From: Polytrichum commune
Taxonomy: Eukaryota; Streptophyta; Polytrichopsida; Polytrichales; Polytrichaceae
Length of the DNA: 64,000 nucleotides
Assembly (NCBI GenBank): GCA_950295325.1
Contig: OX485804.1
Span: forward strand, 53,072,001 to 53,136,000
Direction: 5' to 3'
Below are positions 7,789-37,900 of the stretch, one piece after another; position 1 is the stretch's first letter, and each line of letters begins with the position of its first letter. Position numbers and translations under genes: made by a program. The notes beneath the pieces were generated by a model. It searched no databases. It was given only the letters and a program-made list of their open reading frames with translations, and was not told the DNA's origin.

Positions 7789-8001
7789 ATGGGGAAAGTT
7801 CCCGCCAGAGTGTTGAGGCGAGGAACTAGTAATTCCCAGGCAAATAGTGATAGTCGTAATAGTACCGAGGCCAACCGTGGAGGTGATGATTCTGGAGGTG
7901 CGTCTGCAAAGATGATCAATATTGTCCTGGCCGGTTGTGTCATATGTGTTTTGACAATCTGCATTTTCCGATGTGCTAAAAAAGTTCTAGTCAGAAAGTA
8001 G
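7789..8001 (+). CDS. Small C-terminally anchored membrane protein ORF
   Basis: This open frame of 70 residues starts MGKVPARVLRR. A Ser/Asn/Gly/Asp-rich hydrophilic part (residues about 12-40) is followed by a hydrophobic segment of about 20 residues, INIVLAGCVICVLTICIF, and a basic tail (RCAKKVLVRK). That layout suggests a single-pass, tail-anchored membrane protein with the N-terminus in the cytosol, which is inference from hydropathy only. I do not recognise a family. The frame stays open upstream of the ATG to about 7711, so this could be the last exon of a longer gene. The second half, including the membrane segment, recurs twice downstream with its reading frame kept, which argues that it is or was coding. 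Confidence 0.35.
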   Translation: MGKVPARVLRRGTSNSQANSDSRNSTEANRGGDDSGGASAKMINIVLAGCVICVLTICIFRCAKKVLVRK

Positions 8002-8600
8002 GATGTGGTGGGAATGTGGATCGAGGAGGAGAATGTGTGCAGTTGAGATGGCAAGGCGTGTGTTCTAGTGCTGATGCTTATAATTGGGCGTTCCGAGAGC
8101 ATTAAACGTCTAGTACTGATAGTTGTGAGGCCAATCGTGAAGGTGATGATTCTGGAGGTCCGTCTGCAAGGATTATCCTCCTGGCCGGTTGTGTAACATG
8201 TGTTTTGGCAATCTCCACTTTCCGGTGTGCTAAGAAGTTCTAGTCAGGGATTAGGCTGTGGTTCGAGGAAGAGAATCTTTCCAGGTAAGATCTATGGACA
8301 GGCGTGAGTTCTAGCGTGACTGCTTGTAATTGACGTTTAAAGTGCATAGGACGTCTAGTAGTGATAGTACTGAGGCTAACCGTGAAGGTGATGATTCTGG
8401 AGACCCGTCCGCAAAGATTATCGTCCTTGCTTGTTGTGTAATATGTGTATTTCCTGGAAATCCGCATTTTCTGGTGTGCATGAAGTTTTAGTCAGAATGT
8501 AGGATGTGATTCGAGGAAGAAATTGTGTCCAGGTAAGATGGACAGGCTGGAGTTATAGTGCAACTTCTTGTTATCAGACGGTTAAAAAGCATAGGACGTC
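7841..8600 (+). repeat. Three tandem copies of a TM-encoding unit
   Basis: Three consecutive units share the block GGTGATGATTCTGGAG, with its GATGAT at 7885, 8145 and 8390, so the spacing is 260 and 245 bp. The unit start (GCATAGGACGTCT or close variants) recurs at 8099, 8344 and 8589, which marks the beginning of a fourth, truncated copy. In copies 2 and 3 the same frame reads EANREGDDSGG..SA, then a hydrophobic stretch (LLAGCVTCVLAISTF in copy 2, degenerate in copy 3), then a stop just after the Lys-rich end. Copies 2 and 3 have no start codon of their own. They may be alternative terminal exons or decaying duplicates. Confidence 0.7.
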
Positions 8601-8684
8601 TTCTCCTGTAGGATTATAGTGAACCTGAAACGTTTGATCTGTCTTTGTCTCTGGTTCTGTAGTAACTTCGTTATTGAATCGTAT

Positions 8685-16000: not shown

Positions 16001-18216
16001 TGTGTACTCAAGCGTCGGCTTCCGTACATTGGTGCCCACATTGTTCACCTGTAACAAACAAACAAACAAACTGCACTCAGTTTTGTTTTCCAACCTAGGA
16101 TAATTATGTGCTGAAAAATAGCTTGGAAGCATCCACAAAGAACACGATATCACCATCTCCGGCAAAATCCTTCATTGTAGAATCGTTTTCCTATCCTTCC
16201 TGATATATGGAGAATCTCAAGGTAACTTCAATATTCCCAAAAATGGGTCACTTTCTTTCCACCAATATGTCCAGTTTTCCTCCAAAATGAGTCTCCATTT
16301 TTTTCCCAGAAGTTCAGAAACTAGGAAAAGGAGTGGATGTTTCAAATTTGTGGAAGAATGACCACCTCTTCTGTCAAGGTTTCCTACTTTGCACACTCTG
16401 ATCGTCAGAGTGGTGGAGTCATCAACCTCTTAGCCCCTTCAATTCAAAACAAACTCCCTACCCTTCCTAATACATTAAGAATCTCAATTTGGGTTCCAAC
16501 TTCTTAGCCTCTTTCTAGAATTATCCTCTACCTCAACATGACTTTTGGTCGGGAGTTGGTCAGTTTGCATACAAGACCTTCCATGTTCGGTTAGTTCTAG
16601 GTGCATGCTTGGAGGCAGCGTGGAAGTTTGAACAAAGAACATACTATATCGGGTCATCGAGGGTCAAACTCATTTTGGCATGCCAAGAGGTGCTAAGATG
16701 AGTTTGGCCCTCAATGAACTAAAATAGGTTACTCTTCATTCAAATCCAAACTCTACCTCCGAGGATGCACAACAACTGGAAAGAAATCATTGATGAAAAA
16801 CAACCAATGGAAAATTCCAGGGGACGAACTCCAGACGAAAAATCCCCGTTGAGTTAGAGGATAACTCTCTTATAAACATTTTCCTATCCTCCCTGATACA
16901 TGGAAAGAATCTAAAATTGAGTTCCAACATTTCCAACAAAGATGAGTGATTTTCTTACCAGGATGTCAAGTTTTCCCCCAAAATGAATCTCCACATTTCG
17001 GAAGAGCTCCTCACGGGCTTCCCTCACTGAAAGGTCACACACGGAGCCGTCCACTTTGAATCCTTGTTCACGCCATGCCTTCAACCCTGTTGCAAGAGAC
17101 TCTGCAGACCTCCCACATGTGTACACAGACACTCCCAGCCCGGCTAGCTCCTCCACAATGGCCTTCCTACAGCCAGCCACACGATTAATCCATCCTTGCC
17201 CAATTCAAACATTTCTTTGGCAATATTAGAGTCATCCTCTAACTCAACATAGTATTGGTCAAGAGCTGGTTGTTATACATACAACACCTTCCATGTTCGG
17301 TAACTTTTCGGTCCGTGCTTGGAGGTAGTGTGGAGGTTTGAACAATGGAGCATTTTATATTGGTTCAGTGAGGGTCACTCATTTTGGCATGCCAAGAGGG
17401 TGCTAAAAGGGGTTTGGCCCCTAAATGAACCAAAACAGGTTGCTCTACATTCACTTTCAAACACTACCTCCTCTGAGCATGCACCACCACAAGTGGAAAG
17501 TAACTATTGTATGCAAGACAACCGATGGGAAATCATTGGGGACGAACTCCCGACGAAAAATCTCATTGAGTTATCTCCTTCACCTCTTTACATCAATAGA
17601 GTGAATATTAGTTCACCACGAATGTGAGATCCAAGAGGGAATTCTAAAAGCCAAGCACAAGGATATTCACCACATTTCAATTAGTAGTAGATTCCATGCT
17701 GTTTTTTTAGAAAATCTTGCAGTTCTCCTAGCTCAAAGGTGAGTAGATAGGAACATACTCTACATGGAGAATCTCAATATGTTTTGGAATCTCTGAATTC
17801 TTAACCCTTCCAATTCCGAAACAGTTGATAGGATACATGATAGAATATAGGATAGGAAATTGTTTTGGAATTGAAGGGGTTAAGAAGTTGGAGATTGAAG
17901 AGTGTATCCAAAATTTGTTAGCTCCTTCAATTCCAAAACACATTCCTATCCCCTGAACCTATCGGTGGAGCTCAAAGACTACTTGTACGAAATGGCCACC
18001 AAGCCCTCATCTTTCTATGTACCAATCGGCACCTACCCAATAACTCACACGCAACCCACAGAAATTGCACAAAACGGAACTCCCAAATTCAAGTCTCTTC
18101 AATCAGGGGCAGATAACCCACCCAACACCGCGAGTGCCACCGGTCACCAATGCAGTCTTTCCTTTCAAGTTCCATCTTTCAGCTACTGAAGAAGAAGACA
18201 AAGACCTCGACGCCAT
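13084..18216 (-). CDS. Tropinone reductase-like short-chain dehydrogenase
   Basis: Five exons in transcript order: 18216-18122, 17166-16959, 16048-15832, 14952-14846, 13263-13084. They total 807 bases (268 residues), the usual length for the family. Features are the NADP(H) cofactor motif TGGTRGVG (residues 25-32), CGR after strand 2 (49-51), NNVGT (103-107), and the catalytic set Asn128, Ser155/156, Tyr169 and Lys173 (YAATK). The C-terminus carries [15 protein letters not shown] and [10 protein letters not shown]. The protein should be a soluble NADPH-dependent carbonyl reductase; plant members act on varied ketones, so the substrate cannot be told. The ATG lies in a good context and begins a short Ser-rich N-terminus before [13 protein letters not shown]. 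Intron 3 starts with GC rather than GT (see findings). Introns of 0.9-1.6 kb hold repeats, so the gene is intact only if GC-AG splicing works. Transcription is probably driven from about 18.5 kb. Confidence 0.88.
13421..13520 (+). pseudogene. 5S rRNA-like fragment in SDR intron 4
   Basis: The segment follows the order of plant 5S rRNA from its middle to near its end: CCGGATC-CAT, GAAC-ACTCC, a degraded internal control region, TAGTgCTcGGATGGGTGACCT and a decayed tail. GGATGGGTGACC is the 5S C-box block. The first quarter of 5S is not recognisable and the A-box region is altered, so this is a pseudogene or the head of a 5S-derived SINE, not a working gene. It lies on the strand opposite the host gene. 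Confidence 0.5.
15711..15735. repeat. Interstitial telomere-like repeat
   Basis: Three and a half units of the plant-type telomere repeat TAAACCC stand in tandem inside intron 3 of the dehydrogenase gene. It is short and perfect. Such tracts can arise from break repair or occur in plant promoters as telo boxes. Its position in an intron makes repair or chance expansion more likely. Confidence 0.8.
16190..17640. repeat. Imperfect tandem duplication inside the SDR gene
   Basis: Unit 1 (about 16190-16870) and unit 2 (about 16875-17640) share long blocks in order: ACCTTCCATGTTCGGT, CTCATTTTGGCATGCCAAGA, GGGGACGAACTCC and CGACGAAAAATC or close variants. Each unit starts with a TTTCCTATCCT-like block. 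In unit 2 that block runs into the 3' end of exon 2 (about 16930-16990), and unit 1 has a decayed counterpart at about 16215-16300 (ATGTCCAGTTTTCCTCCAAA against ATGTCAAGTTTTCCCCCAAA). The duplication thus spans intron 1, intron 2 and the edge of exon 2. Confidence 0.75.
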
Positions 18217-18511
18217 GGCTTCGCAATCCGCAGTCTTGCTAAACCACCAAAACCTGTTGCTCCAAAGGTGCGATCAAACCGAAGTTTGGCGAAGTTTTGC
18301 CCTTGCGAATAAGAAGCTCAGCCAATCCCACCCTTGAAGGCAATTTCGGTTTCGGTTTCAGTTTCCTTTCTGAATGAGTTTGCGAAAAAGGTCTGATGAT
18401 GAGCTCAATGGAATTCATACGTCCCTACCGTCAATCCCACACATAGCTCATGTGATTTCATATTTTACATCACATTTGACGGCCTGTTAATTCCGTTCAT
18501 GAGTGAGGGCC

Positions 18512-18519
18512 AATTTATA
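18512..18519 (-). promoter_or_regulatory. Candidate TATA box of the SDR gene
   Basis: On the minus strand the sequence reads TATAAATT about 300 bases before the ATG at 18216. It is the best TATA match in the first 400 bases upstream. The leader would be about 260-270 bases long. This is inferred from sequence alone. Confidence 0.3.
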
Positions 18520-19036
18520 CAGGGCCGGATTTGATGAAACCGAGCGATCCTATTGGCCCAAATTATGAGAGCTCAAGCCCTCAATCCGGCGGCCCTAAGT
18601 ATGTTGGCACATTCTTGAAGATCCATAACAATCAGCTATGTTAACTGAAGGCACTTGAGGAAAACAGGAACCTGGTTTCAATGCAAATAATAAACTTTGA
18701 CAATAAAATATTCCCTGACACGTAAAACGAGTGAAACTCGCCGAACAGATGTATAAAATAGATTAGTAAAGAAAATCTTGAAAGCAAGATAAGCATTAAT
18801 CATTTATATTGCCACTTTCTTACGAATAGGTAGTAGTCCACAATGCAAGAAATTGGGATATCTATCTTATTTATGGATACTCCGTTTTACGTTTAGCTAC
18901 GTATGTTGCCACTTGTCTCGCAGGAATGTTATCGGATAACAGGTGATATCTGTCCCAATTTCGTCCAAAACAGAGCCTATTTTGGACATCAAACACATGC
19001 TATGGACCTCCGAATACAATAGCCGTAGTTCTTAGT

Positions 19037-19164
19037 AAGTGGCAGCTTACATAGTGAATCCGTCTCGTCCGTTGCTCTTATTTAAGTTGCAGCTTACATA
19101 GTGAATCCGTCTCGTCCGCTGCTCTCATTTAAGTGGCAGCTTACATAGTGAATCCGTCTCGTCC
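19037..19164. repeat. 47-bp tandem repeat, 2.7 copies
   Basis: AAGTGGCAGCTTACATAGTG (AAGTTGCAGC in the second copy) begins at 19037, 19084 and 19131, an exact 47-bp period. Each unit continues with AATCCGTCTCGTCC. Copies differ at only a few positions, so the amplification is recent. The sequence has no coding sense. It sits about 0.8 kb upstream of the dehydrogenase start. Confidence 0.85.
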
Positions 19165-19968
19165 ATTTAAGTTCATACAATTATATTCGGAAATCAATAA
19201 CATGATTCAACCTTCGAATGTGGCATTTGTTCAATATGATTACTGATGTCATTATTAATCATGTTACATTTTTTAACACCCAATTCATATACTATAGCTA
19301 TGTATCATGAACATCGATCTTGTCACTGTCTAGGTAATTGTCCAATAAATCCTATTCTGATTTTGATGTTTAACAAACATAGACATAATGGCAAGGCAAA
19401 GCACAGTACTCACTTTCCATTTCAAGACTTGATTAAAAGAACGGTCGTGGATATCAAGGGGGCAAAAAAAATCTTTACATTACTCGTGTGGATCTTGTCT
19501 CCAGTGTTCCCATTCATACATATGAACATCAAAATTGGTCTACATATTATCCTGTAGACTGGATCTAAGCCATCAAAAATTACACAATCGAGCCTCAAAC
19601 TCAGTCTTGCCCAAATCTGGAGCTGTACAAAAGAAATGTTCCTGGAAACCCCCGACGGCTGGTTGCAACTTGTGCGGTCACCAAGTTATGTCATCAGCTA
19701 GAGATCCCCATTTAAATTAATGACTCCAACAAAGGTCAAATGCACATCATTCCATTTCTGCTTGTCCACGCCTGCTCACACCACAAGCTGAGGTGAACAG
19801 TTTCTGCAATATCCAGACTTGCATCGTTAGAAAAGAGATACAATATTTGAATTCAATATGCCTCTGGTAAGATTAGAAGAATAATAGAACATGTACAAAA
19901 TGGACATGGCACATCCAACTCAGCACTTACCATTGCAAACTGTAGTATACATTGAGGAATGTTACTCT

Positions 19969-22900
19969 CTAGACTGAACCACGCTTTCGCTTTCTGGTTG
20001 CCCTTCCAGATTGCCTTACAGGTTCATGATCAGAGAGGAAATCGTCAGAGTCCACGCTCTCATCTTCATCCCTGTGAGCAGAGTTATTAATGTGAGGAAG
20101 GGAAGGCATAGAAAGGAAAATTGGAACCGACATCTTCTTGAGCAGGTAGGCAAATTACTACCTGAGCAGGTAAGTAAACATACTTGGAAATAAAAAAACT
20201 TACTTAACAATGTTCAGTGAGTGCAATTGCTCCAACGCCTGCTTGGCAGTGTACAGCATCATCTTCTTCACCTGCAAAATGGACTCTCAGCGAATTTTCT
20301 TCTTATCTAAGGGATTTGAAGAGGTGCACTCCAGATAAGACCAGATAAGCCATGATGTGATAAAAAGGTCTATGTACCTCAAGCTTATCTTCCTTTGCAC
20401 GGTGATCCTTGGGAAGGAGTCGGAATTGCTCAGTCAAAGTTACACATTGGCCTACATTCTCCGGAGAGACGAAGTCGACAGCCACTTTAATACACGACTG
20501 CATTTGCACCAGCAATCCAGTTTCTTCATCATAACATGATCATGATTGCGAAGAAAGCGTCGGAGCAATTGTGAATTCACAATATCAAATTGCCTAAACA
20601 CTCAATATCAAATTAGTAAAGCAATCTGTAGGTGGAATGTTGGACAGTAACATCTAACAACATTTACAGCAAGGAACCCACCTTCAAATTGCGAACTTGA
20701 TGGGGACACCCAGCTGGAATAAAAACTGCCTCCCCATACGCCTGCTCAAAAGTCCATGGTTCAATGCCTGCAAATACAAAATATTTTCAAGTATAATTAG
20801 GATAAATCAGTGGATGTGTTTAATCTCTCAATGTGATTCCAGATACAATTGATGCCAACTTTAATAACAGACTGATGCTTTCAAAAGCTTGTGTAACAAC
20901 TTACCATATTCCTGTTTCAAGTTCCTCTTATGCGCCACATCAAAGAAAAATTGTTGGTCATGAATTGGGTGAACTAACTGCCCATCAGGAAAACCACCAA
21001 TGTGTCAGATAGATCCACAGATATTATCAGACAAATTCAGAGACATGTGTCATTCAAGAAACAAAAAAGCAAACTATCTCCAAAACAAGCCAGATTTTGT
21101 CTCTGGTTGAGGTGCTCACATCAGACTTAGAATAACAAGGAAAAGAAAGTGGGATACACATAAAATACACATAATTCAAAATATGTGGTGAATAGGTAAG
21201 AGGTGATTCTACCTCTTTCACGGGCAGACAATCCTGGTGCAGGAACTCCTTCCAATGTTTTTGGATATACTCATTCAATTTAGGAACATCCTCGCGCCTA
21301 AAAATGTCCCAAAGAGCCCCACCATAAGATTCTCCATCACCCAGCAGCCCCTGCCTTTCAGTGATGGCAGGCTTGTTCTGCATCTTGTCCTTGGCTACAT
21401 CTGCATTTCCAGCAACAGTATCAACGTCCATAGGTTCTTTGAGATCCACAACCACCCCATTCTCTCCCATTGGAGCGTCCTCTGCCACCAATTTCTCATC
21501 TCTTTCAGGAACCATCATTTCATCAACTGAATCTGTCAGGCTGTCTCGATTATCGTCAACAACTGTGGTCTCTCTATCCCCTGAGGTGGACATCTTTTCA
21601 TCTTTCGAGCTCTCATTTGCAGAGTTACTGCCATTCTCATTGCTCTGCAGAGATACATTATCTTTATGTATGTCCTCGTGTCTGACTGGCACTTCATCAT
21701 CTGAGAGCTCCACAGAGATAACCTTCTGGCTGTGCAGGCCTCCTGAGGTCTTTCCCTGTTTCTTCCCATGCACCCCATATGAAATTTTACCTTGTTTGAA
21801 CTTTTCAAGAACTTTCTCAGTGCGAGGCACTTGCCACTTGGGGTACCGAGGTTCTGTTGAATGTGTCAGTACATTCACCTGTACATTTCCGCCAAATGAC
21901 CACAACATTAAATTTAGAACCCTTGAACATGCATAGATCACTCCAGACACATGTATCGAGCGAAAGCACAGGGAAGTCACCTTACTTATTACAACTACTT
22001 CCAATCAATGCATCAGAACCAACACACAAATTTGGAAGTCTTACTGCATCTGACATGTCACAATGCAACTTTGTAACAGAATCACCCATTCCCAGCTCCT
22101 CCTTCAGACCATAAGCAATGTATGTCTTTGGACCGAGATCAGGTCTAATGGCCTCTTCCGGTAAATGAGCGGCCAAGTTGAGCATGCCATCAGTTGGATC
22201 CGTATATTCATGGAACGGCAATGAATGGAGAAACTCTGCTCCATGACGTGGAAGACGTTCTGCAAAGTGGGTAGAAGGTGGCCAATCCTTCAGTTTCAGC
22301 ATTTCCGGCCAATCTCTTGGTCGAACCTGAAACCGACCCTCCTCGTAACCCCTAAAGAACTGGTGGATGTTGATTTCAACCTGCAAGGATATATTAACAC
22401 TATTTATCAAGGATAACAAATATACTGAGCTGAGCACATGATATCAAAATAAGCCAGAAAACCCACTTCCAGACACAGTGGTCTCTCTCTATTCAATGAA
22501 GAACCTAGAATGTAAATTGTCAGTTTGTAGCACTGAAGGAGGTCAAATGGTCATTATGCAACTCACCTCACGCCAATCAAGGCAATCCAAAGCTTTCACA
22601 GTTTTCGTATCTTCTTCAAATTTCCCCTTAGTTGTTTCCCGGACAGCCCTCCACATGACCAGAGGCTCCCAGCTGAGACCTGTGGCACCTTCAAGCACAT
22701 TCCGCACTATCACCGGCTCACCTCGCATCCAATGCTTCTGGAAATGCGCAAGACCTTCCTCTTCCACTCTCTGTCTAGTTGGACAGTACAAGTGGTTGTC
22801 ACACGAGCTATCTCGATGAGCAGATAACCTCATGTTTTTTAGGTTGTTCTCGGGCACATCACAAACATCACAGTGGATCATGTCATCCTGCTTCAGGCTC

Positions 22901-25614
22901 TCACAACCAAGAGACACATTCTCAACATCCTGAGTCAGCTTTGCCATCCAGTCTTCCTCAAAAAGTGTGCAAAGAGTTAAAGTGTTCCCTCCACATCCAT
23001 GGCATGCCTTCGGAGGGCATGGAATGGAGCCATCTTCATTGACTTTCCAAGCAGGTACAGCCTCTGCCTCTGAAAGCTCTGGTTGGAGGCTTGATTCTTG
23101 TAGTGCCAACTTAGGCTTTGGTTCTTGAAGATCCACTTCAGGCTTTGCCTCTGGCTGATCTACCTCAAGGTTTAGCTCCAGAGACAGCTCCTTCTGCTCT
23201 GTTAGCTCCACCTCCAGCTTTGATCCTGATACCACCTCTGCTTTTGCCTCCAATGGCAGAATCTCTGGGTCAGAATCATCATCAAGCTCTGCACGTTTTT
23301 GAGAGTCTTTTGAGACCCTCTTTGGCCTGTTAGGGGTTGCCTTCTTCTTCCTCCCTCTCCTACCCCCCTTGGGCTTTCTTCCTAACTTCGCTTTCCCCTT
23401 CTCCTCTTCCTCATCAACGTCAGCATCAACATCAACATCAGCATCAGCATTAACATCAATGTTAATAGCATTCCTCCGGGCAGATTCCGCTTGTTCTCCT
23501 CCAGGTTGGCTTCCAGCTCGAATCTCATTGCAGCAACTTAGACAAAGGTCGTAATGACAGGTTGGGCAGCTCCTATGGAAGTCTACAATTGATGTGCTAC
23601 AGTTGTCACTGCTCAACCACAACCATGATGAAAGAGTCAGTAAGTTCACAACAGCCCCCTCCTATATCACCAAAACAGGTGCCTCCATATACTAGCCTGA
23701 AAACAATGTTAAGAGCTTGCCATATCACATACCAGTAAAGCCGCTCATCCATGGGAATGGTGGTGTATGTCGCCTTCACATTTGTAGTACCTGAACAAAC
23801 ACACAGGATGTGTTTATCCCTCCTTGAAGGAAAACGAGTTGGAAAATTGTAGGCCCTCCAATACTTCTGACAGAAACTTGGAATTCTATCTCCAGCCAAC
23901 CTGACATACTTTTGACGATAAGCAGAGACAAAGATCAATGAGGTTTTTTGTTAGAAGAATTGGAACTCACCTCCTCGTAAAGCAGACTCCAGCTTCAACT
24001 CTGCTTGCTGCTCTTGATGTAGCTTTTGCAAGCAGGGTAGGAGTTTCACCAGACAATACTGCAACACTCTCTTCTGATCTTCAACAGGCAAAACATGCTT
24101 TTTCTGCAGTCAAGATCCCACAATATTAGATAATACAAGTATTTAGCAGTGAGTAAAGCATCTAAAAACAGGAAACGACACGCCCTAGGACATACAAAAC
24201 TCTGCCAAGAGCATGATGTACATTTCAGTCACATCATTCAACCAGAAATCAAAGGTACTAACCAGCGTAGGTCCAGAACTGCGGAGGCATGCCTTGCAGT
24301 TACAGTTACCCCGACAGCACGGGCAATTTTCAGCTACATCAGCCTCTGTCAGCAAGGGGTACCTACAAATTGTGAAAATTAGTTTGCTAGTTGTTCAGAA
24401 CTCTAAAGGCAGACCTTCAGATTTTCATTCAAGCAACAAAAGAAATACACAAATTGAGTATCAGGCAAGGAATCAATATTCTACCAGGCTTTAATGCATG
24501 CATCGCAGTAGCGCCTGCGGCTGCACTTTGTGCAATATATCACAGAATCCTTGTCACTCCTCTGACATTGATGACACATCCGGCATTCGAGAAAGTCCTT
24601 CTCTCTTTCAGAATTGCTTAACTGCACACCCAATTAGCATGGTAAATGCCCCCATTATTTGGTTATAATGCAATGGGCATACCTGAAAATCTGTGACCTA
24701 AAAATCAGACTATTGCTCATTGACACACCATTGGGTATGCAAACTAACCTTTTTGTCACCAAAACGCTTGCCATCTTCGTTTTGGCTGTTGTCCGACTCC
24801 TCCGCATCGGAATCTACAGCCGGCACAAACTGATTACTTTTCTTCCTTTGTACTCTTCGAGCATTCTCGGACATCTCTGCTACAACTCTCTTCTTTTCTC
24901 GGGGCTTGACAACTTCCGGTTTCTGCTTCTTAACCTTGGCACTGCCTTCTTCGGCATTGCAGGACTCCGCTTTGGGAGTCAGTTTCTTCATAGCAGTGCC
25001 ACGAAGCTCCGCTTCAGGGTTAGGTTTCTTCTTCTCCCGAGGAGTTCCATTTTTCGGTTTCTCTCTGTAATACCTTGTATGCTGCTCACAGTAGTTGGAA
25101 CCCTCAAACTTCACTCCTCGGCACCGCCACTGTTTACCATCAGACCTCTTGCAACGGTGTTCATCATCAGGTGGCTCGCCTTGTGGAGCCCCCCTTGATT
25201 TCCTTCCAGACCCAGGTTCTTTCTCAGACTTGCGCACCTTCTTCTCGCCAACCTTTGGCGTCTTGGGTGTCTTTTCCTCCAAGGAAAGCACCTCACTTTC
25301 GGCAAACTTCACCTTCTTCTCCAATTTACATTCCTGGATCTTCGCATGCAAATCAACAATTTCTTCTTCACGCAATTCAATCACCTCATCTTCTGACCCA
25401 TCCGCATCACTAGGGATTTCTAACCGTGCCCGGGCATCCCTCTTTGCTTGCCGCGATGGCCTGATTCGAACCGGTGGCTCACAACCCCTGATGTATTGGA
25501 AAACCACACAATAATGAATTCGCACATACAAGAAACTTGCATCATACTTAGAGTCACATCGTCAACACATCCAACAACCACCAAATAAAGCAAAGTAGAC
25601 AAGATGGGTTACAT
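19969..25614 (-). CDS. JMJ25: JMJ25-like lysine-specific (H3K9) demethylase
   Basis: Thirteen coding exons: 25614-25613 (AT of the start codon), 25487-24749, 24621-24485, 24362-24263, 24103-23971, 23790-23733, 23608-22567, 22380-22045, 21878-21213, 20977-20905, 20767-20682, 20497-20378, 20271-20204 and 20071-19969; all phases close (about 1220 residues). The split start is inferred; from 25487 on the frame is firm. Domains: WRC zinc finger 112-140 (C113, C123, C134, H137); RING-like cluster 259-320 ([21 protein letters not shown]); KDM3-type Cys/His region 390-420 and CHGCGG; JmjC about 740-1165 with Fe(II) ligands H843 and D845 (KLHCDMSDA) and H1118 (GCPHQVRNL). All metal ligands are present, so it should remove H3K9me1/me2 in the nucleus, using 2-oxoglutarate and O2. 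This group (IBM1/JMJ25) protects genes from heterochromatin. Lys-rich and acidic linkers separate the domains, and the C-terminus is basic (RKRKRGSV). If the first exon is wrong, only the N-terminal residues change. Confidence 0.92.
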
Positions 25615-25700
25615 ACATGGTGTCAATGATAACACAGTCCAAAGCTGAATATCCTCCTTGAAATCAACATATAGATGCCCAGCTGCACAAAATGGTCCCA
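25613..25700 (-). other. Likely 5' exon next to the JMJ start
   Basis: An acceptor (TTTCTCACAG) ends at 25701 and a donor (AT/GTAACC) starts at 25612, bounding 88 bases on the minus strand. The last two bases, AT, would join the G at 25487 to make the ATG of [13 protein letters not shown]. The exon itself contains an upstream ATG frame that stops within it (TTATCATTGA). Alternatively the reading frame stays open through this exon (GAAGHLYVDF-like sequence) and the protein starts farther upstream. The first reading is simpler but unproven. Confidence 0.4.
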
Positions 25701-26850
25701 CTGTGAGAAATCAGCTCCCTTCCACAGATGAAAAAATCCAATCCACCACTACATCTGACAACGTCCAATTCCAAAATTTGGAAGTCAGTCTTAAAGCTTT
25801 AAAAGAACAAGTTTAATTACAGCAGCGACCTCATGGCCAGCTCCAAAGAACGACCAGGCAAGGCACTCACAAAGAGCCATGACAGATTGCCACATCCCAT
25901 AGTCAAGTATGGAAGTTGAGATGCGCCATGAACATACAAGACATACATAAATGCGCACAGCAGAAGTGGAGCATAGCAACGGTTACACTAACTGTAGATG
26001 TTTGCGCAACAGCCCTATATCTCCCGCCTAACGTATCCTCCTCTAAGCCATTGCAACCGAATTTCAAGAAAGCGTGTGTGTGCTAGCCTTCCTCCCACGC
26101 ATTGCAAGCAACTGGAAAACTTCAATAGGGAACCCCAAAGCGGCCATTACATAGCCACGGAAGTTCTCGCTGTTCTTCGAGAACAGGAGGCAAATACACA
26201 CCATCACAAAAGATGGAAACCAAATACCAGCCACTCACTTTCTCACTCATTCACACTACGCAAAAGCAATTATGTGAAACACCCCCTTCATCACTTCAGA
26301 GAAACACAGAGGGCCGAATCCAAATCCCGCCCATTCTCACTCACTCACTCAGTGACACTTACGCAACAATAATTCCGAGAAATCCCTCCATATGAAACAC
26401 ATCACACATTGGCTGTCCTCAAAAAGGACAAGGAATAGAAGTACTATTAAAGCAGCAGAGAGAGACAAAAAACAGAGGATATCAACCCCATCGAAACGGA
26501 AGCTGGAAAAAGGATCGATATCGTATATAAACCCCTCGCACAACAAAACAGATGCCCTCTTTAAGGCTTACACTCGCACTCCCTCCGAGCCTAAACCTCA
26601 TCACCGCGCACCAAGATAACACCCATCCTCGATAACTCCACCCATTACTCGCACCATAAGCTCCAAGCCATCAACAATTTTATAAATATGCAACAACAGG
26701 GGACAGATCTTGAGCGAAGAAATACAACAGCCATACCGCCTGTCCCCACATCTCCGCTTCGCTCCCAAAACCAATTCCCATATATAGAACAACGAACCAT
26801 CAATAATAACAAACAGAAACCCGCAAGACAGTACAGATTGAGAAACCAAG
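25701..26850. other. JMJ 5' flank / leader intron region
   Basis: No coding exon is seen on either strand. If the cassettes at 26854-27780 are first exons, this is the large 5' leader intron of the demethylase gene. Confidence 0.4.
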
Positions 26851-26853
26851 TCA

Positions 26854-27685
26854 CACCATTCCCCGCAAGGTGAGCGAGGGGAAAGGAGTGTGATTGCGAA
26901 GCTCTAAAGGCAGACCACAAAGACACCGAGCGTTCAATTCCCATCCACAAACCGACAACGACAACACAGAAAACAGATTGAAAAGACAGTGGATAAGAAG
27001 AAACTCACCATTCCCCAAGGCGGGCTAAGGCGGATGCTTGAGAAGGCGGATGATGATTGATGATGAGAAGCCACGGCAACAGCAACAACATCAACGGTGG
27101 CGGCAAGACGCAGAAAGAGAACTACTCACTACTCAAGGGGGCAGGGGCAGAGCGGGAAACGACGCCATCAGGTGATTGAGAAGCTCTAAAAACAGGCACA
27201 AAGACACGCAACGTCAATTCCCATTCCCCAAAACAACGAAGCATTATTAACAAACAATAACAACGAAGAAAAACCACAAGACAAATACAGATTGGAAAGG
27301 AGAGTGGCGGAGAAGAACTCCACCATTCCCTAACGCGGGCTTAGGCAGATGATGATTGTTGAGAAGCAACAGCAACAACAACAATGGTAGAGGCAAGAGG
27401 AAGACAAAGAGACGAACTACCCAAGGAGGCGCCATCGGATGATTGAGAAGCTCTATTGACAGACACAAAGATACCCAGCGTTCAATTCCCATTCCCTAAA
27501 CAATGAAGCATCATCGACCAACAACAATAAAAACAACAACTCAAAACTTACAAGACAAATACAGGTTGAAAGAGAGAGAGCGGGGTAGAAGAAACTCACC
27601 ATTTCGCAAGGCGGGCAAAGGCGGACGATTTCGAAAGCGGGTAATGATTCACAAGAAGAAAACCACAGCAACAAAGGTGGCGGCA

Positions 27686-27716
<31 letters not shown>

Positions 27717-27780
27717 GAGAACAACACTACTACTGACTACTCAAGGGGGCAGGGGAAGAGCGGGAGGAGAAGCCATAGCC
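26854..27780 (-). promoter_or_regulatory. Four tandem 5'-exon-like cassettes upstream of JMJ
   Basis: The plus-strand core CACCATTCCC (CACCATTTCG in the last) occurs at 26854, 27006, 27319 and 27597. On the minus strand it reads GGGAATG followed by the splice-donor-like GTGAGTTTCTTCT at 27006 and 27597, GTGGAG at 27319 and GTGTGA at 26854. Each core is preceded (minus strand) by CGCCTTxxCCCGC-type sequence, and the outer copies by TTCCCGCTCT..CCCCTGCCCCCTTGAGTAG. After each donor comes a shared pyrimidine-rich AATCTGTATTTGTCTTG-like stretch. The copies look like duplicated first exons plus promoter, giving alternative 5' leaders. A GACA tract (27686-27715) lies in the farthest copy. Confidence 0.5.
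27686..27715. repeat. (GACA)n microsatellite
   Basis: About seven perfect tetranucleotide units lie within the outermost 5' cassette of the demethylase gene, where they would be in the 5' untranslated leader on the minus strand (CTGT units). Confidence 0.9.
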
Positions 27781-27858
27781 ATGGCGATGATGATGGTCAT
27801 AACCAGAAAGAGCATCATCATAACCAGTGAATGGAAGTATGATATTCAGAAAAATAGG

Positions 27859-27944
27859 AATGGCGCCGCTCTACAATGACTGTAACGTAACAACACTTTA
27901 ACAAGCTTCGAATGTAAAGATGTGGGTAAGAGCGAATGGCGCCG
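27859..27944 (-). promoter_or_regulatory. Paired AATGGCGCCG boxes
   Basis: The 10-mer AATGGCGCCG occurs at 27859-27868 and 27935-27944, 76 bases apart, just upstream of the outermost 5' cassette of the demethylase gene. Its core GGCGCC is palindromic. Repetition at this position suggests a promoter element, but I know no factor assigned to it. Confidence 0.3.
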
Positions 27945-30900
27945 TGTGTGCTCTCCATTTATGAGGGACGATCACTCCCTTAACTTAATTCCCATTGTCG
28001 CCCACTAATTTGCTTCTGCTTCGCATGGCATCGATGTAAGTATGTCTGCCTGTTGGATCGGTTCGTTCGTTCAATCACCGGCCCCAGCTCGGATGGATGG
28101 AATGAAATGGGATCATGGATGGTGGGATGATCCATTGATGATCGAATGATCCATCGAGACTACCTCAATTACTTACTCAGATCCACCCACTGTTTGAATT
28201 TCCCTTTTCCCTCTTCTGCCATTCTTCAATTACCTCTTCTCCTCCGACCGACCTTCTTCACTGGAGGAGTCTTCAGATTTTCCCCAACTAGGTATTTGGG
28301 GATGACTAGTTGAAGAAAATTCATAACCGATAGCTCATCCAAGAGAGCATAATGGTTATCAAAACTGGTCCTTTTTTTTTCAACCACGAAGGCACGTTAT
28401 CATCCATAATTTCCAGATCTTGTCCACGAACTGATCGGTTATGATCCATAACCCAGCTCCAGTAGGTGGATGACGAGTCACATGAATGCTACCTATAGTG
28501 ACAAGTTTTGAATGATTTTTTTTTGTGAAGAAGGTCGCAAATGGTTGCAAACCGTCGTCCACCGAGCGAGTGAGCTGAGTGACGAGCTCATTGTTTGTTG
28601 ATGTTGCATTAGGTTGGTTTCATGATCCATGTCTTGTTTTATTTCATTCACTCGTCCTTGTTTTGAGTATTTGGTTTGAATTTTGGCAGTCAAGGGGAGG
28701 GAATCCGTAGTTACGCGAAGCATTAGAATCATCCATAAAGTCCGTCAAAGAGGGACAAAACCGCAAGTTTGATCCTTCTTTGAGAAAACTTTATACGAAG
28801 AGCTCATTGCCTCATCGTACATTGAAGACTATTTTAAAATTTGGGTGGAACTTTTGGGATCTACTCTTTCCACCTCTCAAACTTTGAATGAATTTTATGA
28901 TCTAAAATGGGGTATGCACACGGGACCTACTGTCTTAAACCTCGGATTGGCCTATGCAAGACCAACTTGGCCCACCCATCCTACATAATAAGACAACTAG
29001 AAAGTCAAATCTCAATATAGAGATTACCACCATTCTTTTGTGTATGGTTAATCTAAACATGAACAAGAAAACTTAGATGACTTTGTGTTGATTCTCATTA
29101 ACTCGAGGTTTGGGACTAAACCCACAATTCATCTACTTCACTTCGCAAATACCCTATTAAGCGGTGGTTCAATTAGTGTTGTCCGCGGTTGAAATTTTCT
29201 TCGTCGTGGTGATGACTTGGGGGGGGAAGGGTGGGTGGGAGGCCCATTTTTCTTGCTTTTCTTTTGGGTGGATGGGAAAGGGAAGGGGAGTGGGGAAGAA
29301 AGGAGGTGAGCTTATTAGATGGGTTGTTGAGTTGCCGACATCCGACTTGGTGTGAGAGCCTTTTAGCCGCACTCTCGTCTCATTCATTGCCTTTTTTTAT
29401 GAAGCAATCAACAAGTTTGTAGTTGCCGTAGTAATAACTTGCATAGTCTTCTCATGGAACACTTACGTACATGAATACATGGATATGGACATTTTTTTAC
29501 ACACCATGGAATTCCCTCGCCTACGATCTTGGCAAAGTGGTGCTTCCGAAATCTCCCAAACACAAAGAAACCCACAAAATTGGAGGGAAAGTCAAATATC
29601 ATATCCCCACCCTCTAGGCTACCTACATGTGATGAGTAGGTAGATAGGTAGGTAGACACTCCCCAAAGCCTCCGGTCTTTCTCATTTTCCCGGGAAATTT
29701 GTAATGCCAAGTGTGGGAGCAGTATGAAACAAGGCCAAAGAGGGGGCCGGGGGGGGGGTATGTAGTATGCATCCCGGAATTTTGTTATTCTAAGGTGATT
29801 TGGCATCGGAATTAGTTTCAAGGACCCTAAATTAGTGTAGGTAGAGTCATTTGAGAGGAATCGAGCACAAATTTAAAGGGGGTCAAGTTTATATGTTGGA
29901 TGGATGAGAGGTGCATTTGTGTGCGATATGACCCTTTTTCATCCGCGTGAGTCGTAAACAAAGGGAGGCTTTCTCCCAATAGGGTGGCAACCTTGTTGGC
30001 ATCATCAAGTAAAGTGTTCAATGGATTCATTCTTGCTTCCGATTAATACTCTCCCTTCCCTTTTCAAATTTCCCAAGCATTAATGTAGTGCAAGGAAGGT
30101 TCCAGTGCCACTCCTTTGCCATGTCATTTATCATTAAGTCATGTGGGATTACCAAACTTACAATTGAACCAAAAGAAGAAGAAGAAAGGATGTTGATGAG
30201 TCGTCAAGGCCACACCGTTGTCCTTCCTCTCATGTGGTAGCTACCAAGGTAAGCGGGTCTTAAACAAGCATATTTCTCTATGAACCCACTCCTCTTAGGA
30301 TTTGAAACACGCAACTAGTGTGAGATGATTAGCAAATCCAAACCGTGCTAGTAGTCGTTTTTCTCATAATTATCATAACTCATTTATATATCAAACTTAT
30401 TCATTGTCAAAATAAAAAGATTGTTTGAGTTATTAAGGATCATATAGACCCCCCCCCCCATTACCTTGACTATTACACCTAAAACCGTTAATAATTTTGG
30501 AGCATGTAGTCCAATCTCTTTTCAACACATGTGTTTTTGGTGTCCATTCTTAGATCCACACCCAAACCATTCACCACTCAAATAAAGGTGTTTGTTGAAG
30601 ATGAGGCACCGATTTAGGCATACCTATTTTACCCAAAGTAACCAACGAGTGTTCTCCCTCTTATAAAGACTTATAATTACGTGCTTTGGGCCCGAGTCTC
30701 TCATGATGTCTGAAAGCGGCCACCTCCAAATTTACGAGACAATAGCACTAAAGTCAATAGCTAAGTTAGGTCCGTAAAATTGTCCCATGTCTATGCTTCA
30801 GGTTGAAATGTCTCTCGTTCATACCTTCATTTGACATCATAAGTTTCTTTAAACCCCTCCCAAATTATGGCATTGAGAGGGAATTGTCACATACGAACTT

Positions 30901-33200
30901 ATCTTCATCCATCCAACATTAAAAACATGACCCCCCCCCCTATATGTTTGTGGTTGATTTACATCTAATGACTTTAACCATGCCAATTTGGGATCCTTAA
31001 AGCCAATTATGTTGTCACTTGAACTGAAATAAGTATAACATTTGGACTACATAGTAATTCAAAGCTTCTTATGTTACATAAATGAGAAGCATGCTTGTAT
31101 ATAATTCTCTCTCACCAGTTGCATCAACCATTTACATTCTAGGTGAAAACAAATTGACCCCTTTTAAAATTGTAGTTCTCATTGAAGCTGAAGTTATCCG
31201 AAAATCAACATCAAAGACCCCCAAATTTAAGGTGAATTAGGATGAATCAACCACAAACATGTCACATAGCACAAGGGTTTTACTCAACCCCTTTACATGG
31301 TTGCCACGAGTCCCGAGTCATTTGGGGACCTGGAATCCAAAGGCAAGTCACCTACACTATGAAGATACGTGGGTGTTTTTTGGGTTTGTTATTCATGTTC
31401 ACTATTTTCAACCAGTTAAGATTCACACAACAAAACTTGTATTACAATAGCAAATTTATGACGAAGCATCAACTTAAAACAAATTCAAAATCGTAACAAT
31501 TATCAAAAGTGCATGTTTATTGATTCCTTAATAGAATACAGGGGTCCTCCTAAAACTGCTATTCATTATCGAGTGTGCAGTGGTTAATAAACTTTGAAGA
31601 CTTTATCCAATATCTTTTAAACATGTGTCTTTATGGTGTTTGTTCTTAGATCCTCAAGGTTAGGCACATGCCCAAGCCAACAGTTTTACACCGTGGCCCA
31701 CTAGTCTTTGATTCAAAACTGGCATTTTTGCATATGCATGGCTTCCACATAACTGTCCAATTAAGAAAGAAAAAAGTAGGCGAGAAAAGTAAACCCCCCT
31801 TGCACATCTTATACCATGAAACTCCCGCACCTAGGTGATAAGTTAATATCACCTTGGCAAACCATGTATCACCAAAATTTCTTAATTTCAATTGACGAAG
31901 TGAGGAGCATTGGCCACCCTATCGGAGTAACAAAGTCACACATGCGACGGTTTTGCAAACCTCCATACGAATTCACACACATTCATCCAAAAGTTGACAA
32001 TCTCGTCCAAATTTTTACGAATCGTTGGAGACATCTATGACTTGCTCCATCCACACAAGAATCACGGAATGAACATGGAATATAAACAAACACGTATATT
32101 TCAAGAACCCCACGTCACCAACACACAGCCAAATCAACAATCAACACGTAATACAAAGCTCCCAAGTTTCCTCATGTTACTTCGTACATAGATGTACCCC
32201 AATCGGTGCATGTTACCATCCAAAAGTTACACAATGCGATAACGTCTCACCAAGGAGTTCAATTTTTTACTAACAAAAATCCAATCCAATAGGTGTCTTC
32301 GGACACTATAGAACATAAACGACTTTTCTCGGTAAAACATTACAACAACAACAATAATAATAACAAGAAAACGGTAGAACCGTGAGGCTTTGTTCTTTAT
32401 TATGAAAGACAACAATTGTAGTTGTCCACTTTGCTCATGCCAATTCATGGCTATTCACTATACCAAACCTTTCTTGGATTTTGTGCACCTTCTTCTCAAA
32501 CACGGGTCAAAGATTGAAGCTACTCATTTATCACCCGGAAATTTTTAAAATAAATAATCGAGAACTTCCGAAATAACTATAGTTAACTAGATTTCTTTCA
32601 ATGCATTTTAGGGAGCACTTATATATAAACTATAATTAACATCCACATTACATAAAGTGGACCCAAAATAACAAGAACAAGTAACGTCCAAGTGTGAACA
32701 CAAAGTGGTTAGGAAATTTGCTGTTGAAACGAAGAAGTTGATGCATAGTCTTTGTCCTATAGACAGAGCCAATAAAATAAAAAAGGTTACTGCACTCCGG
32801 AACTCCTCCTACACAGTGGGATAATAATCAGTGTGTGTACTGGGGGGAAAATGGAGGGAAAGAAATCAAACAGCAGTCATAGGCTGTGAGGCCCAAGCGG
32901 CCCTAGGCTGGTCCTTTTTCCCCTTTCTCTTTTTCCCCGGGAAATTTGTAATGGGAGCGTTCCCAAGAACCCCTGGCCCATGCTGACTCACCACCAGGCG
33001 CCGTTCCCCTCGGCGTTCCCATGAACGGTTGAGCTAGGGAAGGGGGAGGGCGGGAAAGGGGATTAGGGGTGATTATTATTAATGCTTGGGCGCCCTTTCC
33101 GGCGGGAATTTTTTAATTGCCTGAAGATGACTTCCTTAATTTGCTTGCCCCCTCTCTCTCTCTTTTATAGTACTGGCAAGCTCCCCGCGCCCTGACCACT
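27945..33200. other. Repeat-derived intergenic DNA, no gene seen
   Basis: Open frames are short and lack motifs. Landmarks are homopolymer C/G runs near 29750, 30450 and 30930, a copy of the GGATGGATGAGAGGTGCA family near 29894, a reverse copy near 30890, and a piece of repeat family B on the minus strand at about 31360-31500. A block with CCCGGGAAATTTGTAATG occurs at 29690 and again at 32940, each after a pyrimidine-rich run, so the two sites share an old repeat. Confidence 0.5.
31360..31500 (-). repeat. Repeat family B, reverse copy
   Basis: On the minus strand this reads GATGCTTCGTCATAAATTTG and onward, closely matching 11795-11850 (GATGCTTCATCCTAGATTTG) and 40880-40935. Only the 3' part of the family is clear here. 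Confidence 0.6.
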
Positions 33201-33206
33201 AGGACG

Positions 33207-33216
33207 TCGACACGTG
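33207..33216. promoter_or_regulatory. G-box/ABRE-like site
   Basis: GTCGACACGTGTCC (about 33207-33220) contains the palindromic CACGTG core of plant bZIP/bHLH sites. It lies just before the inverted-repeat cluster at 33326, not before any recognised gene, so its relevance is doubtful. Confidence 0.25.
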
Positions 33217-33325
33217 TCCGGTGGTGTTTAGAGTAGAGGGACCCATTTCCGATCGCATAAGTGGAGTGAAGGTAGGAATACCATACTCCGTGAAAATAAG
33301 GTGATTCGCATTGAAGATGTATTAG

Positions 33326-33615
33326 GTAATCGTTTTATTGGAACCGGTTCTATCAAGGTGGCGAGCCAGCTGGACAGAACCTGTTCTGCACTGATGACCG
33401 GTTCCAATAAAATGATTACGGGACGTAACCGGTTGGCCGCTTTGTTGAGCCGCGCAGGTGACCTAAACAGTGGGTCACCTGTCGTCTTCTTCAACATATC
33501 CAATTTAGATGATCATAACCGGCTGGGATGTCGAGGTTATCATCTGCAAACATGTGTGCTCAGAGCCAATCGTGTAGTGCCACCTCGGCGAAACAAAGCG
33601 GCCAACCGGTTACGT
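33326..33615. repeat. Cluster of four inverted repeats
   Basis: Stem 1: 33326-33349 with 33396-33419 (23 of 24 match, core TTTTATTGGAACCGGT). Stem 2: 33423-33446 with 33592-33615 (24 of 24, ACGTAACCGGTTGGCCGC...). Inside stem 2 lie stem 3, 33456-33463 with 33473-33480 (AGGTGACC, perfect), and stem 4, 33508-33520 with 33535-33544 (GATGAT..AACC with a 3-base bulge). The CCGGTT core is shared with another repeat family in this window. An open frame of 110 codons runs through but has no motif. Confidence 0.85.
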
Positions 33616-33619
33616 GGTC

Positions 33620-34820
33620 TTACAATATCATGAGATGATGTTCCCCAAGATAGACGAGAAGGGTTTGTGAAGAATGCGACTTGTTTCGTATTAGTTTGTC
33701 GTGTACGGGAAAATGCTACAATTTTACAAAGTGGAAAGTTGTCGAACCCGCTGCTCGTTCATTAGATTCTCCCTACGTTGAACATGGTGATCCGCATTTG
33801 CATTACAAAAGAAAAGAAAAACAAGCATGAGTGCATTAAACTTGGCTCCCGTTGGCTACCACTAAGTGTACACACATTGAAGTTGCCGCCTTGCCATGCT
33901 CGGTTTCAGAAATGGCACTTCACTATTATGGCAGTAGGTTAGTGCACGGGTAGAGGGTGGTTAACCGGTTTGGGTATTTCTACCTTACACGTGTGATACT
34001 GGAGTGGTTTTCACACCGGTCTGGGAATCGATGTTTTAACGTTTAACAAAAAAGAAAAAAAATCACAGTTTGTTTTCGAGTTTTGGAATCACTGTAAATT
34101 TCCAAAGGCGAGGTTCTCTCCCAACCCGTATTCAAATAACTCTCTATATATAAATAACCGACGTGAATTGAAGCCCGTTCGTCCTACTCTGTTCAAGAGT
34201 CCTCTTGGTGCAGGGTGGGGTTTGCTCCTTACCTTGCAGTTGGTGGGTGGGCTCTTGGCTTCCTACCTACCTACCTACCTAGTTTTTGTTTTTTTCTCCT
34301 TCCGTCAAGTAGACATAAGATTTCATAGCCAACCACTCCATTTGGAAATGGGTACCTCTCCACTATCACCCGGTAGTTCAAGGTCATCTCAGACCAAACC
34401 CAAATTCATAGTATAGGTCGACATGTTTCCGATAACTATAAGATGAAAAGTTGAGTGCGATTAGGGTCCTTTTCAAGGAACCCCAAATTGTGCCCTTTTA
34501 ACCTGCCTTCTTTTCGCACGTTGAATGAGATGGTTGTATGTGTGATCCTTCATCACTTGTTCCATCATGCTAGGAAATGACGGCTACATGTGTGGAAGTT
34601 CCGTAACATTACTTAGCGGATGAGATAGGTTCGACTACTTTGACTTCTTATTCGATTTGAAGCATCATGGTTCCAACATCTGGAGGCTTTATTTTGGAAT
34701 CTACTATGGGGCCCATGAACAAAACTCATCATCCGAGTAATGTAATGCCACGGCTTTAGGGGACTCTGTATTAAAATTTGTGTGTGGGGGGGGGGCGTGG
34801 GAGATGGGTTTGTCTACTCT
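33620..34820. other. No gene seen
   Basis: AT-rich DNA with a (CTAC)n run near 34262-34281. Open frames are short and motif-free. I see no RNA gene. Confidence 0.5.
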
Positions 34821-34993
34821 AGTATCACTTACTACTCGGAGTTACATATTGCTATACCGTTTTATTGTTAATGTGAATTTACCAAGTAAAGATGTTAATG
34901 TTCTACAATGTCCAAACAACCGCTTTGCCTATTGTTGGTAAAAAAAAAAGGAGTTCTATATAGCATGATGTAACTCCGGATAGTAAGTGCACT
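34821..34993. mobile_element. MITE with inverted ends
   Basis: The left end AGTATCACTTACTACTCGGA and the right end (reverse complement AGTGCACTTACTATCCGGAG) form imperfect inverted repeats of about 35 bases that continue through GTTACATxxTGCTATA. The unit is about 173 bp and non-coding. Ends of the same family occur at 44079-44299 and 56615-56838. Confidence 0.6.
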
Positions 34994-37900
34994 AAATACC
35001 ATAAACTTATCATATTGGCAATTAGCACACATGACACTTTGAGGCCTCTAGAAATCTAGTTTAGGCCGCCTTCCAAATAGTGTACGTGACACTAAATAAC
35101 ATAAATGGTGTAATGTATGCTCTTATGTGGTCCTCGTTCCAATCGGGGTCAAAATTACAACCATGGCCCCCACATGCGAGCCAAAAGCAAACTCTCCATG
35201 AGTTTAAGTAAACAATGCTATGTACACCTCTTTGTCAACATATTTGTCAACTCTTTTGGGTGATAAAAGTTTGCTTACATAGGGGCATTTAGTGTAGCAT
35301 ATTGGGATACTTGAGATGATAATTTTGCGTTTCAATATGCAAGTGGAGGATATTATTGAGTGTACTAATGACAAGTGTCCTTTATGTTTTGGGTTCATTT
35401 TGCAATTGAATTTTCTATTTGTGCCAAAAAAGAAAGAAAGACAAGTGTCCTTTGTGTACATTCTTGTCAACATGTAGTTCATTGTGTAACATAAGCATAC
35501 ACCTCATAACATTATTGAACAAACTCATGCCAAGATATTAGTAAGCGCACTGGAATGCCAAGTGTCATGAGGTGATATGTTATCGGTGAAGTTGTGGATC
35601 ATTAGTGTAATATAGCATATGCCTCAAAATAGGGTAAGTGACACTATTATGTGTGTGACACTAAATACCATTAATGTTGTAGTGAGTCTTGCTTTTGGAG
35701 CCATACCCCCCCAGGTCATCAATCTTGCCAATGATGAAAATGCATTGACGTACATTTTAACACATAGCTTCACCAACTCTTGAATTAGCACAAGAGTGTG
35801 GTAAAGAATCTGAGCATATGTATAGTGTGATTTATCTTAGTCTACACTATACATCGAGTCTTGTTTATGAAGCCAAACTCCACCAATCTTGCCTATGGTG
35901 AAAACACATTAAATGATTTTATGATGCAATTGAATAAGCTCTATATTTAGCATGATAGACATCAAATTACATCGATTATGGTAATTAAGCAAATAAATTA
36001 GAGGGTGAATAAGGTAGGGTTTGATGTGGGCATGCATATGTATAGCGTCACTTACCATGGCTCGCAATATAGTGAATCTTGCTTTTGGAGCTAGACCCTC
36101 ACCAATGTTGCCTACAATGAAAATGCAATGGACAATATTACAACACATAATTTAATTGACACTATAATTAATGGGAGAGACCTTGCTTTACATTGATTGT
36201 GGTAAATAGTGTGGGAACATGTATAGTGTGAGGTATCATAACCCATAATAAACACCATCATGCAAGAAACTAATTTGCAACCCTAGTTACACTTGAATCT
36301 TCAACCACTTATTATGTTCTCATTCTTTTGCTATAATTTTGATAATGTATCAAATGAAAGCTATGATTGAGAATGTGAATTTAAATAGCTCGATTTTGCT
36401 TCTTAAGTTCAAAAAGCGACATGAATAGCAAATGATCAACTAGTGGTCATTGCAATCAAGTGAACGAATAAGAGTTAAGAGACCTTATTGGTGTTTATGG
36501 CAAACGTTTGAGAAACTTCACAAGATGTGTTGATTGTTTATGCAAATTAAGGAAGTTTTAAGGGAGATAAATTCATATGAAGAAATTATTGGAATCATTT
36601 CCTGAAGCTTAACCCTCAAAGGGTCACATGTAGAGCAAAGTAGAATTTACAACAATTTTCATGTTGTCAATTGAGGACGTTTAAGTGGGTGTTACTTTAG
36701 GATGTTTCTCAATTCATCGTTGTGGATTGGATATAGTAGTATTGAGGGCATTGATATTTTTATTCTTATAACATTTGAGATTTTTTTGACCGTTGAGATT
36801 AAGTCGTGAAATCCTAATGGTGGAATAATACAAGAGATGTCGGAGTCTAGTTTTTGGTTGGTGTTGCCTTCTTGATGTTTGTATTATTATTTTTAAGGTG
36901 ACCTTTTTCTAGACCTTTGCATGCGAGCTTAGTCCATCTACAAAAAAGGAAAATAAAATAAATCACATTTATTATTTATTTATTATGGTTCCCCTGAGCT
37001 TGTTTTGGGGGCATGTCAGATATGGATTGCTTTGAGAGATTCATTCCAAATAAAAGTTTTCCCCAAGTACTCAAATATGAACTATAGACAAGAAGATGCA
37101 TATATATAAAGAAAAATAAGATTTCTCCCAATTTTCTAGGTCCATCTTAATTATAAATGGACCTATCTACATTTACTCGCCTCGATGTGAAATGCCTCCA
37201 AAATATCTGAAAAAATGTGCGAAAAAACCAAGATGTCGCCATGTTTTTTGATAGGTGGGGGGGGGGTGAAAGGTAAAATCTTGCAAGACCGACCCCCTAA
37301 TGTTTATAATTCATTGTTTGACTTTGAAATAAAGCTTTTGGACCACATAAAAAATGTGCAAAAAGCCAAATATGGTGTTAAGGTCCTTTAGGTGTTAAGT
37401 AGGTTTTGGTGGTGGGCTTCGCCTTCATATCATCACTTCAAAGAGAGAAAGTCACTTATCAAATGGATAGCATTACATTGCACATTGTTGTCAATTTAGC
37501 AAGAATATTGTAACCTACAAAACGAACCTCTTATGCTCAATATCATGGGTTGGTAAATGATGTGCACCCACGTTGTCATCTCCAATGTTTTCAGTGTGGG
37601 AATCAGGTTCAATGGTGTGGCATGTAATCTTTCCACAACTAGTGTAGCTTAAGTTGAAATAAATCTACCACAAATCTATGGGAGAGAGGTTACTAGTCCC
37701 CTTACATCAACAATAATTTTAGCCCCAGTTAGCCACGAGGATCCGAATTCCCCTCCTCCTTCAATGATGTTTGGTTCCTGGCAACATGATGACAAGTACT
37801 GACAATAACATGCCCATCCCAAGTTTGTTGTTGTCAAATAGGTCCCACTAGACAATATTGACATTTATGACTATAAATTAGGAGGTAAATTTGTCTAAAG

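Follow-up and report, generated by a model that had tools for sequence, protein, structure and literature searches.

The stretch of Polytrichum commune DNA analysed here (64,000 nucleotides, hereafter the window) carries a minus-strand reading frame with a WRC domain (PF08879, E 2.3e-11). A JmjC fragment (PF02373, positions 73–105 of 114, E 2.5e-6) was found about 4 kb further on from the WRC exon, at ~20780–20682 in a stop-replaced minus frame. The gene is probably a plant histone-demethylase gene of the JMJ25/KDM3 type, a name that we take to follow from this pair of domains. In part of the JMJ25/KDM3 family, the WRC domain lies near the N terminus, and the family has a RING/zinc-finger region between the WRC and JmjC domains. 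No match to the latter region was listed in the minus frames of 16000–25560 at E 0.1; intron-bearing read-through frames can hide it. The protein encoded by the WRC exon gave 9 and 106 pattern matches in collections of viral and prokaryote contigs, respectively, none of which was confirmed, and no PDB sequence match at E 0.1. No Rfam match was obtained in the window at gathering scores. Further along the minus strand, pieces of a short-chain dehydrogenase domain occur at ~17165–16953 (25.8 bits, slightly below the cut-off of 26.6), near 16048, and at ~13269–13105, and these perhaps belong to a separate long-intron gene downstream of the demethylase gene.

The main start codon is most likely split by an intron between its second and third letters. 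Joining 25617 to 25487 produces ACCATGGGT and an open frame, and the frame read has no methionine other than the predicted start ahead of the WRC domain. With the start codon most likely placed at this junction, the repeated units lying upstream would belong to the 5′ UTR. The start region is composed as follows (a slash within a motif marks the exon edge).

24710..25487, minus strand: portion of the first main coding exon with the WRC domain (Pfam WRC match, open frame)
25488..25616, minus strand: predicted intron splitting the main start codon AT/G, GTATGT ... ATCAG (the join gives an open frame)
25617..25700, minus strand: predicted final exon of the 5′ UTR, with 25682 as an alternative start and ...GACACCAT at its end (splice-site ranks)

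Upstream of this gene, and on its strand, imperfect tandem copies of a leader-like unit are present, as the first-pass annotation had proposed. The best off-diagonal self-match of the region is 160 bits (E 1.5e-42), whereas the maximum in 100 second-order Markov sequences modelled on the region was 38.3 bits. The annotation had placed four copies within 26854–27780. Four copies do exist, but the array extends from 27776 to ~26775 and consists of three long head-to-tail copies and a truncated fourth one, which retains a 47-nt part of the exon. The donors are spaced by 276, 315, and 152 bp and the acceptors by 267 and 282 bp. A blastn search (query 26700–27900, E 1e-3, low-complexity filter on) found no further copy of the array in the window. 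The constituent parts are listed below.

27600..27776, minus strand: copy 1 exon part, predicted noncoding (repeat match from 27776, donor 27599)
27453..27599, minus strand: copy 1 intron part, GTGAGTTTC ... CAATAG (donor tied for rank 1 of 231; 44.9% T)
27324..27452, minus strand: copy 2 exon part (acceptor-like start TAG/AGCTTC)
27186..27323, minus strand: copy 2 intron part with the broken donor GTGGAG (donor rank 44 of 231; 47.8% T)
27009..27185, minus strand: copy 3 exon part (motifs and alignment; 33.3% C)
26904..27008, minus strand: copy 3 intron part, GTGAGTTTC ... CTTTAG (donor rank 2 of 231, with a score equal to rank 1)
26857..26903, minus strand: copy 4 exon part, truncated to 47 nt and lacking the middle of the unit (alignment)
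26775..26856, lower end approximate, minus strand: copy 4 partial intron part, donor GTGTGA (alignment)

Tandem exon duplication yields head-to-tail copies of an exon together with flanking intron and splice motifs. The array has this form, with adjacent head-to-tail copies covering both an exon and its flanking intron, and the repeat is a real but not extraordinary structure. The window contains a second imperfect long tandem repeat at 7851–8601, where a 245-bp unit, present three times in tandem with 77% matches, overlaps minus-strand open frames. Shorter arrays are a CCTAAAC array of 4.9 copies at 15703–15735, a rotation of the plant telomere repeat, and 11.9 copies of the 13-bp AT-rich unit ATATCATATATCT at 55401–55551. 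The CCTAAAC array and the WRC domain are the features that mark the DNA as that of a plant.

Each unit of the leader array is made up of an exon-like part and a T-rich intron-like part. The exon parts of the four copies contain 28.7–38.3% C and 25.5–38.4% T (31.1% and 38.4% in copy 1), and the intron parts contain 12.2–17.1% C and 44.9–47.8% T. This contrast is inherited on copying and is no demonstration that each copy is used. The exon-like parts of copies 1–3 end in GAAATG or GGGAATG followed by GTG..., and the edge ATG at the donor, which had been predicted for every cassette, is kept in all four. The two strong donors described earlier are present as ATG/GTGAGTTTCTTCT, but their first intron bases are 27599 and 27008 and not 27597 and 27006, each two positions off. 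The altered donors of the other two copies were recovered as ATG/GTGGAG (27323) and ATG/GTGTGA (26856). Copies 2, 3, and 4 start at an acceptor-like sequence, TAG/AGCTTC[T/G]CAATCA, at 27452, 27185, and 26903, respectively. This sequence was absent from the first-pass annotation, and no acceptor of the AGCTTC type lies in front of copy 1. Because copies 2–4 open at such a site, the duplicated unit comprises an intron in addition to the exon. Copy 2 has several internal gaps in its exon part when aligned with copies 1 and 3, and the acceptor end belonging to the unit is not recognisable in the intron part of copy 4. An AGAC microsatellite of 8.8 copies lies at 27686–27720, inside the exon part of copy 1, and is likely a length-variable site of the leader.

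Splice sites were scored with weights that approximate Arabidopsis frequencies, for the 231 GT and 110 AG sites on the sense strand of 25400–28000. By motif alone, copies 1 and 3 have the two highest-scoring donors, with equal scores, whereas those of copies 4 and 2 rank 11th and 44th of 231. Decay of the altered donors, as previously suggested, fits copy 2 and, to a lesser degree, copy 4. The array acceptors at 27185, 27452, and 26903 rank 6th, 22nd, and 23rd of 110; those of copies 2 and 4 are weak. A usable acceptor and donor are not found by motif scoring in each copy, and copy 3 is alone in having a well-ranked acceptor as well as a well-ranked donor of its own. Downstream, the acceptors at 25682, 25487, and 25700 rank 2nd, 3rd, and 21st of 110, and the donor at 25616 ranks 4th of 231. 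Several donor-bearing candidate exons, of which two have strong, one a weak, and one a broken donor motif, therefore precede the shared exon at 25700/25682. The first-ranked acceptor of the 110, at 27495 in the intron part of copy 1, was passed over, since the alignment shows no corresponding AG in copies 2 and 3; it could still be used.

The strand composition has a boundary just above the array. Over 25490–29400, the A/T asymmetry changes at 27937, and none of 2000 permutations of 20-bp blocks gave a change point as strong. The largest minus-strand excess of T over A, among 2300-bp stretches taken every 100 bp, is that of the stretch from 25501. The asymmetry suggests a transcribed leader that starts once, above copy 1, reaches ~27.9 kb, and includes the whole array. 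In the neighbouring DNA above the array, the six stop-replaced frames of ~27900–37499 gave no Pfam match at E 0.01.

What the sequence shows directly is a repeat with splice-like motifs, exon and intron parts that contrast in composition, and an open coding frame, and we propose the following explanation. In the leader of a probable plant gene of the JMJ25/KDM3 type, a noncoding first exon and the 5′ portion of its intron would have undergone partial tandem duplication, at a time remote enough to account for the 15–40% divergence of the copies. Transcription would start at or above copy 1. Copy 1 would be the main leader exon, spliced to the UTR exon at 25682/25700 with or without copy 3 in between, and this UTR exon would in turn be joined to 25487 to complete AT/G. 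Copy 3, which alone matches copy 1 in having a full-strength donor, would be the likeliest minor leader, either as an internal exon that is included or skipped or as an additional first exon. Copies 2 and 4 appear to be decaying and would probably be mostly spliced out as intron. We give about an even chance to this explanation, with copy 1 as the main leader exon, copy 3 as the likeliest minor one, and copies 2 and 4 in decay. Copies 1 and 3 are plausible candidates for alternative leaders. More broadly, the array may give the gene alternative leaders, or it may simply lengthen the first intron.

The first-pass annotation had regarded the cassettes as alternative promoter and first-exon units. 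The leader-like character on the sense strand, the exon/intron composition, and the two top donors agree with this proposal. The further step, in which transcription starts separately in each intact cassette and every such first exon is spliced to the same downstream exon, is unlikely in our judgement. The strong donors of copies 1 and 3 are consistent with it, and in Arabis alpina PEP1, separate starts of two tandem first exons were found by 5′ RACE (PMC3527215). Peaks in the excess of C over G have been described around plant start sites (PMC555766), and such peaks sit at copies 1, 2, and 3 (0.40 at 27743–27842, 0.38 at 27563–27662, 0.28 at 27348–27447, and 0.35 at 26968–27067). However, C excess also occurs outside the cassettes (0.31 at 28051–28150, 0.23 at 26421–26521, and 0.19 at 25905–26004), and a value of 0.33 is reached by 7.8% of all 100-mers of the window. 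In 25500–28400, nine 60-mers of the sense strand reach a pyrimidine content of 78% or more, with starts near 26420 and 27250. None of them falls in the exon part of copy 1; therefore, no pyrimidine patch marks a start there. Taken together, the asymmetry and the C-over-G peaks are compatible with a leader start near or above copy 1. Separate promoters would make the acceptor-like sites before copies 2–4 superfluous, and with such sites these copies might just as well serve as internal exons or be removed as intron. The asymmetry change point above copy 1 points to one leader, and the copies are just 267–315 bp apart, which leaves little separate promoter sequence.

It is likewise improbable that copy 1 is the sole exon and that copies 2–4 are dead sequence in a 5′ UTR intron of ~1.9 kb, whose size or content may affect expression. 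One of the four donors is broken and another is weak, and we found no constraint around the acceptors. MAFFT alignments gave 59–81% identity (K80 0.22–0.62) in 12 exon or intron comparisons, and gap-friendlier pairwise alignments of copies 1–3 gave 82–85% over ungapped columns; the divergence of 15–40% thus varies with the pair and the aligner. Among copies 1–3 (copy 4 was excluded), the last 54 columns around the acceptor showed no extra conservation in the three pairs (p 0.19, 0.22, and 0.49). Between copies, 13.5–20.7% of 9-column windows are fully identical, and shared donors are therefore no proof of selection. With this general similarity and no excess conservation at the acceptors, there is no sign here that the copies are being maintained. 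On the other hand, the donor of copy 3 is unchanged and top-scoring. TTNGATYTG is an intron enhancement motif. It has no exact match on either strand of 25488–27820, although nine one-mismatch matches lie on the sense strand of this interval (3.9 per kb, versus 1.6 per kb on the same strand window-wide). We set this excess aside because the leader is T-rich. CGATT occurs in the interval once on the other strand and not on the sense strand. In Arabidopsis EF1alpha-A3, a 5′ UTR intron has a published enhancing effect that depends on intron size (PMC1482700), which would suit an intron lengthened by duplication.

The array could also be a stepped leader selector, in which copies 1 to 4 are joined in series or skipped, so that splice choice and copy number tune the translation of the chromatin regulator; we consider this rather doubtful. 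We enumerated 30 predicted leaders, taking copy 1 from 27776, in which the first copy is 1, 2, 3, or 4 in 16, 8, 4, and 2 cases, respectively. They span 111 to 612 nt and contain 2 to 9 upstream ATGs. Every one of the 30 carries a uORF of 15 codons and another of 20 or 26 codons that shares its frame and begins at the edge ATG; both end 4 nt before the main ATG. An in-frame upstream ATG that runs open into the main frame was found in none of the 30, and a uORF of 81–87 codons overlapping the main start was found in four (copy 2 alone or copies 1 and 2, with either acceptor). The edge ATG is common to all copies; therefore, cassette choice leaves the edge-ATG uORF unchanged. The earlier expectation that this choice would alter upstream ORFs holds for the ATGs inside the cassettes, which differ, and fails for the edge-ATG uORF, which is identical when the cassettes are joined directly to 25700/25682. 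On the minus strand, an 11-residue uORF reads MASPPALPLPP in copy 1 (27741–27776) and MASFPALPLPP in copy 3 (27133–27168), and most of it falls in an alignment gap in copy 2. We rejected it as a conserved peptide: by our count, three of the five differences are synonymous, which is too few for claiming selection.

Two further readings are very improbable. A further first exon above 27880 would make all four copies internal leader exons or intron, with the acceptor of copy 1 at 27870 or 27879. These two acceptor-like AGs rank 4th and 5th of 110, so copy 1 may be internal and not the first exon, and the change point at 27937 lies above both; however, the asymmetry ends at about that position, leaving little room upstream (donors were scored up to 28000). 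That the array is a plain noncoding tandem duplication outside any transcript of the demethylase gene, with a coincidental leader look, is hard to credit because the asymmetry boundary, the donor ranks, and the exon/intron composition agree on one orientation.

In comparison with general tandem exon duplications, the array similarly has head-to-tail exon copies, flanking intron, and splice motifs. It differs in that a noncoding leader and not a coding exon was duplicated, with one donor broken, one weak, and the last copy truncated. Among the matches listed, the closest published case is the duplicated first exon of PEP1, the FLC orthologue of A. alpina, where a tandem duplication of roughly 2 kb gave first exons 1a and 1b that are 6.3 kb apart (PMC3527215; also PMC7927791). 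In both cases a first exon, along with portions of the promoter and of intron 1, was partially duplicated in tandem, and the copies lie upstream of a single gene body that they share. However, PEP1 has two copies 6.3 kb apart, and the array has four within ~1 kb. The first exons of PEP1 are coding and have separate starts determined by 5′ RACE, whereas the candidate exons of the array are predicted to be noncoding. Unlike PEP1, the array has acceptor-like sites in front of copies 2–4. Alternative first exons occur in ~5% of expressed Arabidopsis genes (PMC2174465); as here, there are several candidates, and some alter only the 5′ UTR. The candidates in the array, by contrast, are copies of each other, and the strings "duplicat" and "tandem" occur 0 times in the main text of that article. 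Enhancing 5′ UTR introns (PMC1482700) share with this locus a long 5′ UTR intron before the start codon, but the candidate intron here would hold duplicate exon units. The two UTR passages of a paper on IBM1 (PMC11265718) describe no duplicated leader, and none was found for a JMJ25-type gene among the matches listed from the open-licence literature, judged by title and the start of the abstract.

If the copies are unused, the array would represent duplicated exon debris that enlarges a 5′ UTR intron. If they are used, a chromatin regulator would be preceded by a compact, naturally occurring set of duplicated leader exons whose donors have decayed to different degrees, and the retention, skipping, or loss of such exons could be tested on it.
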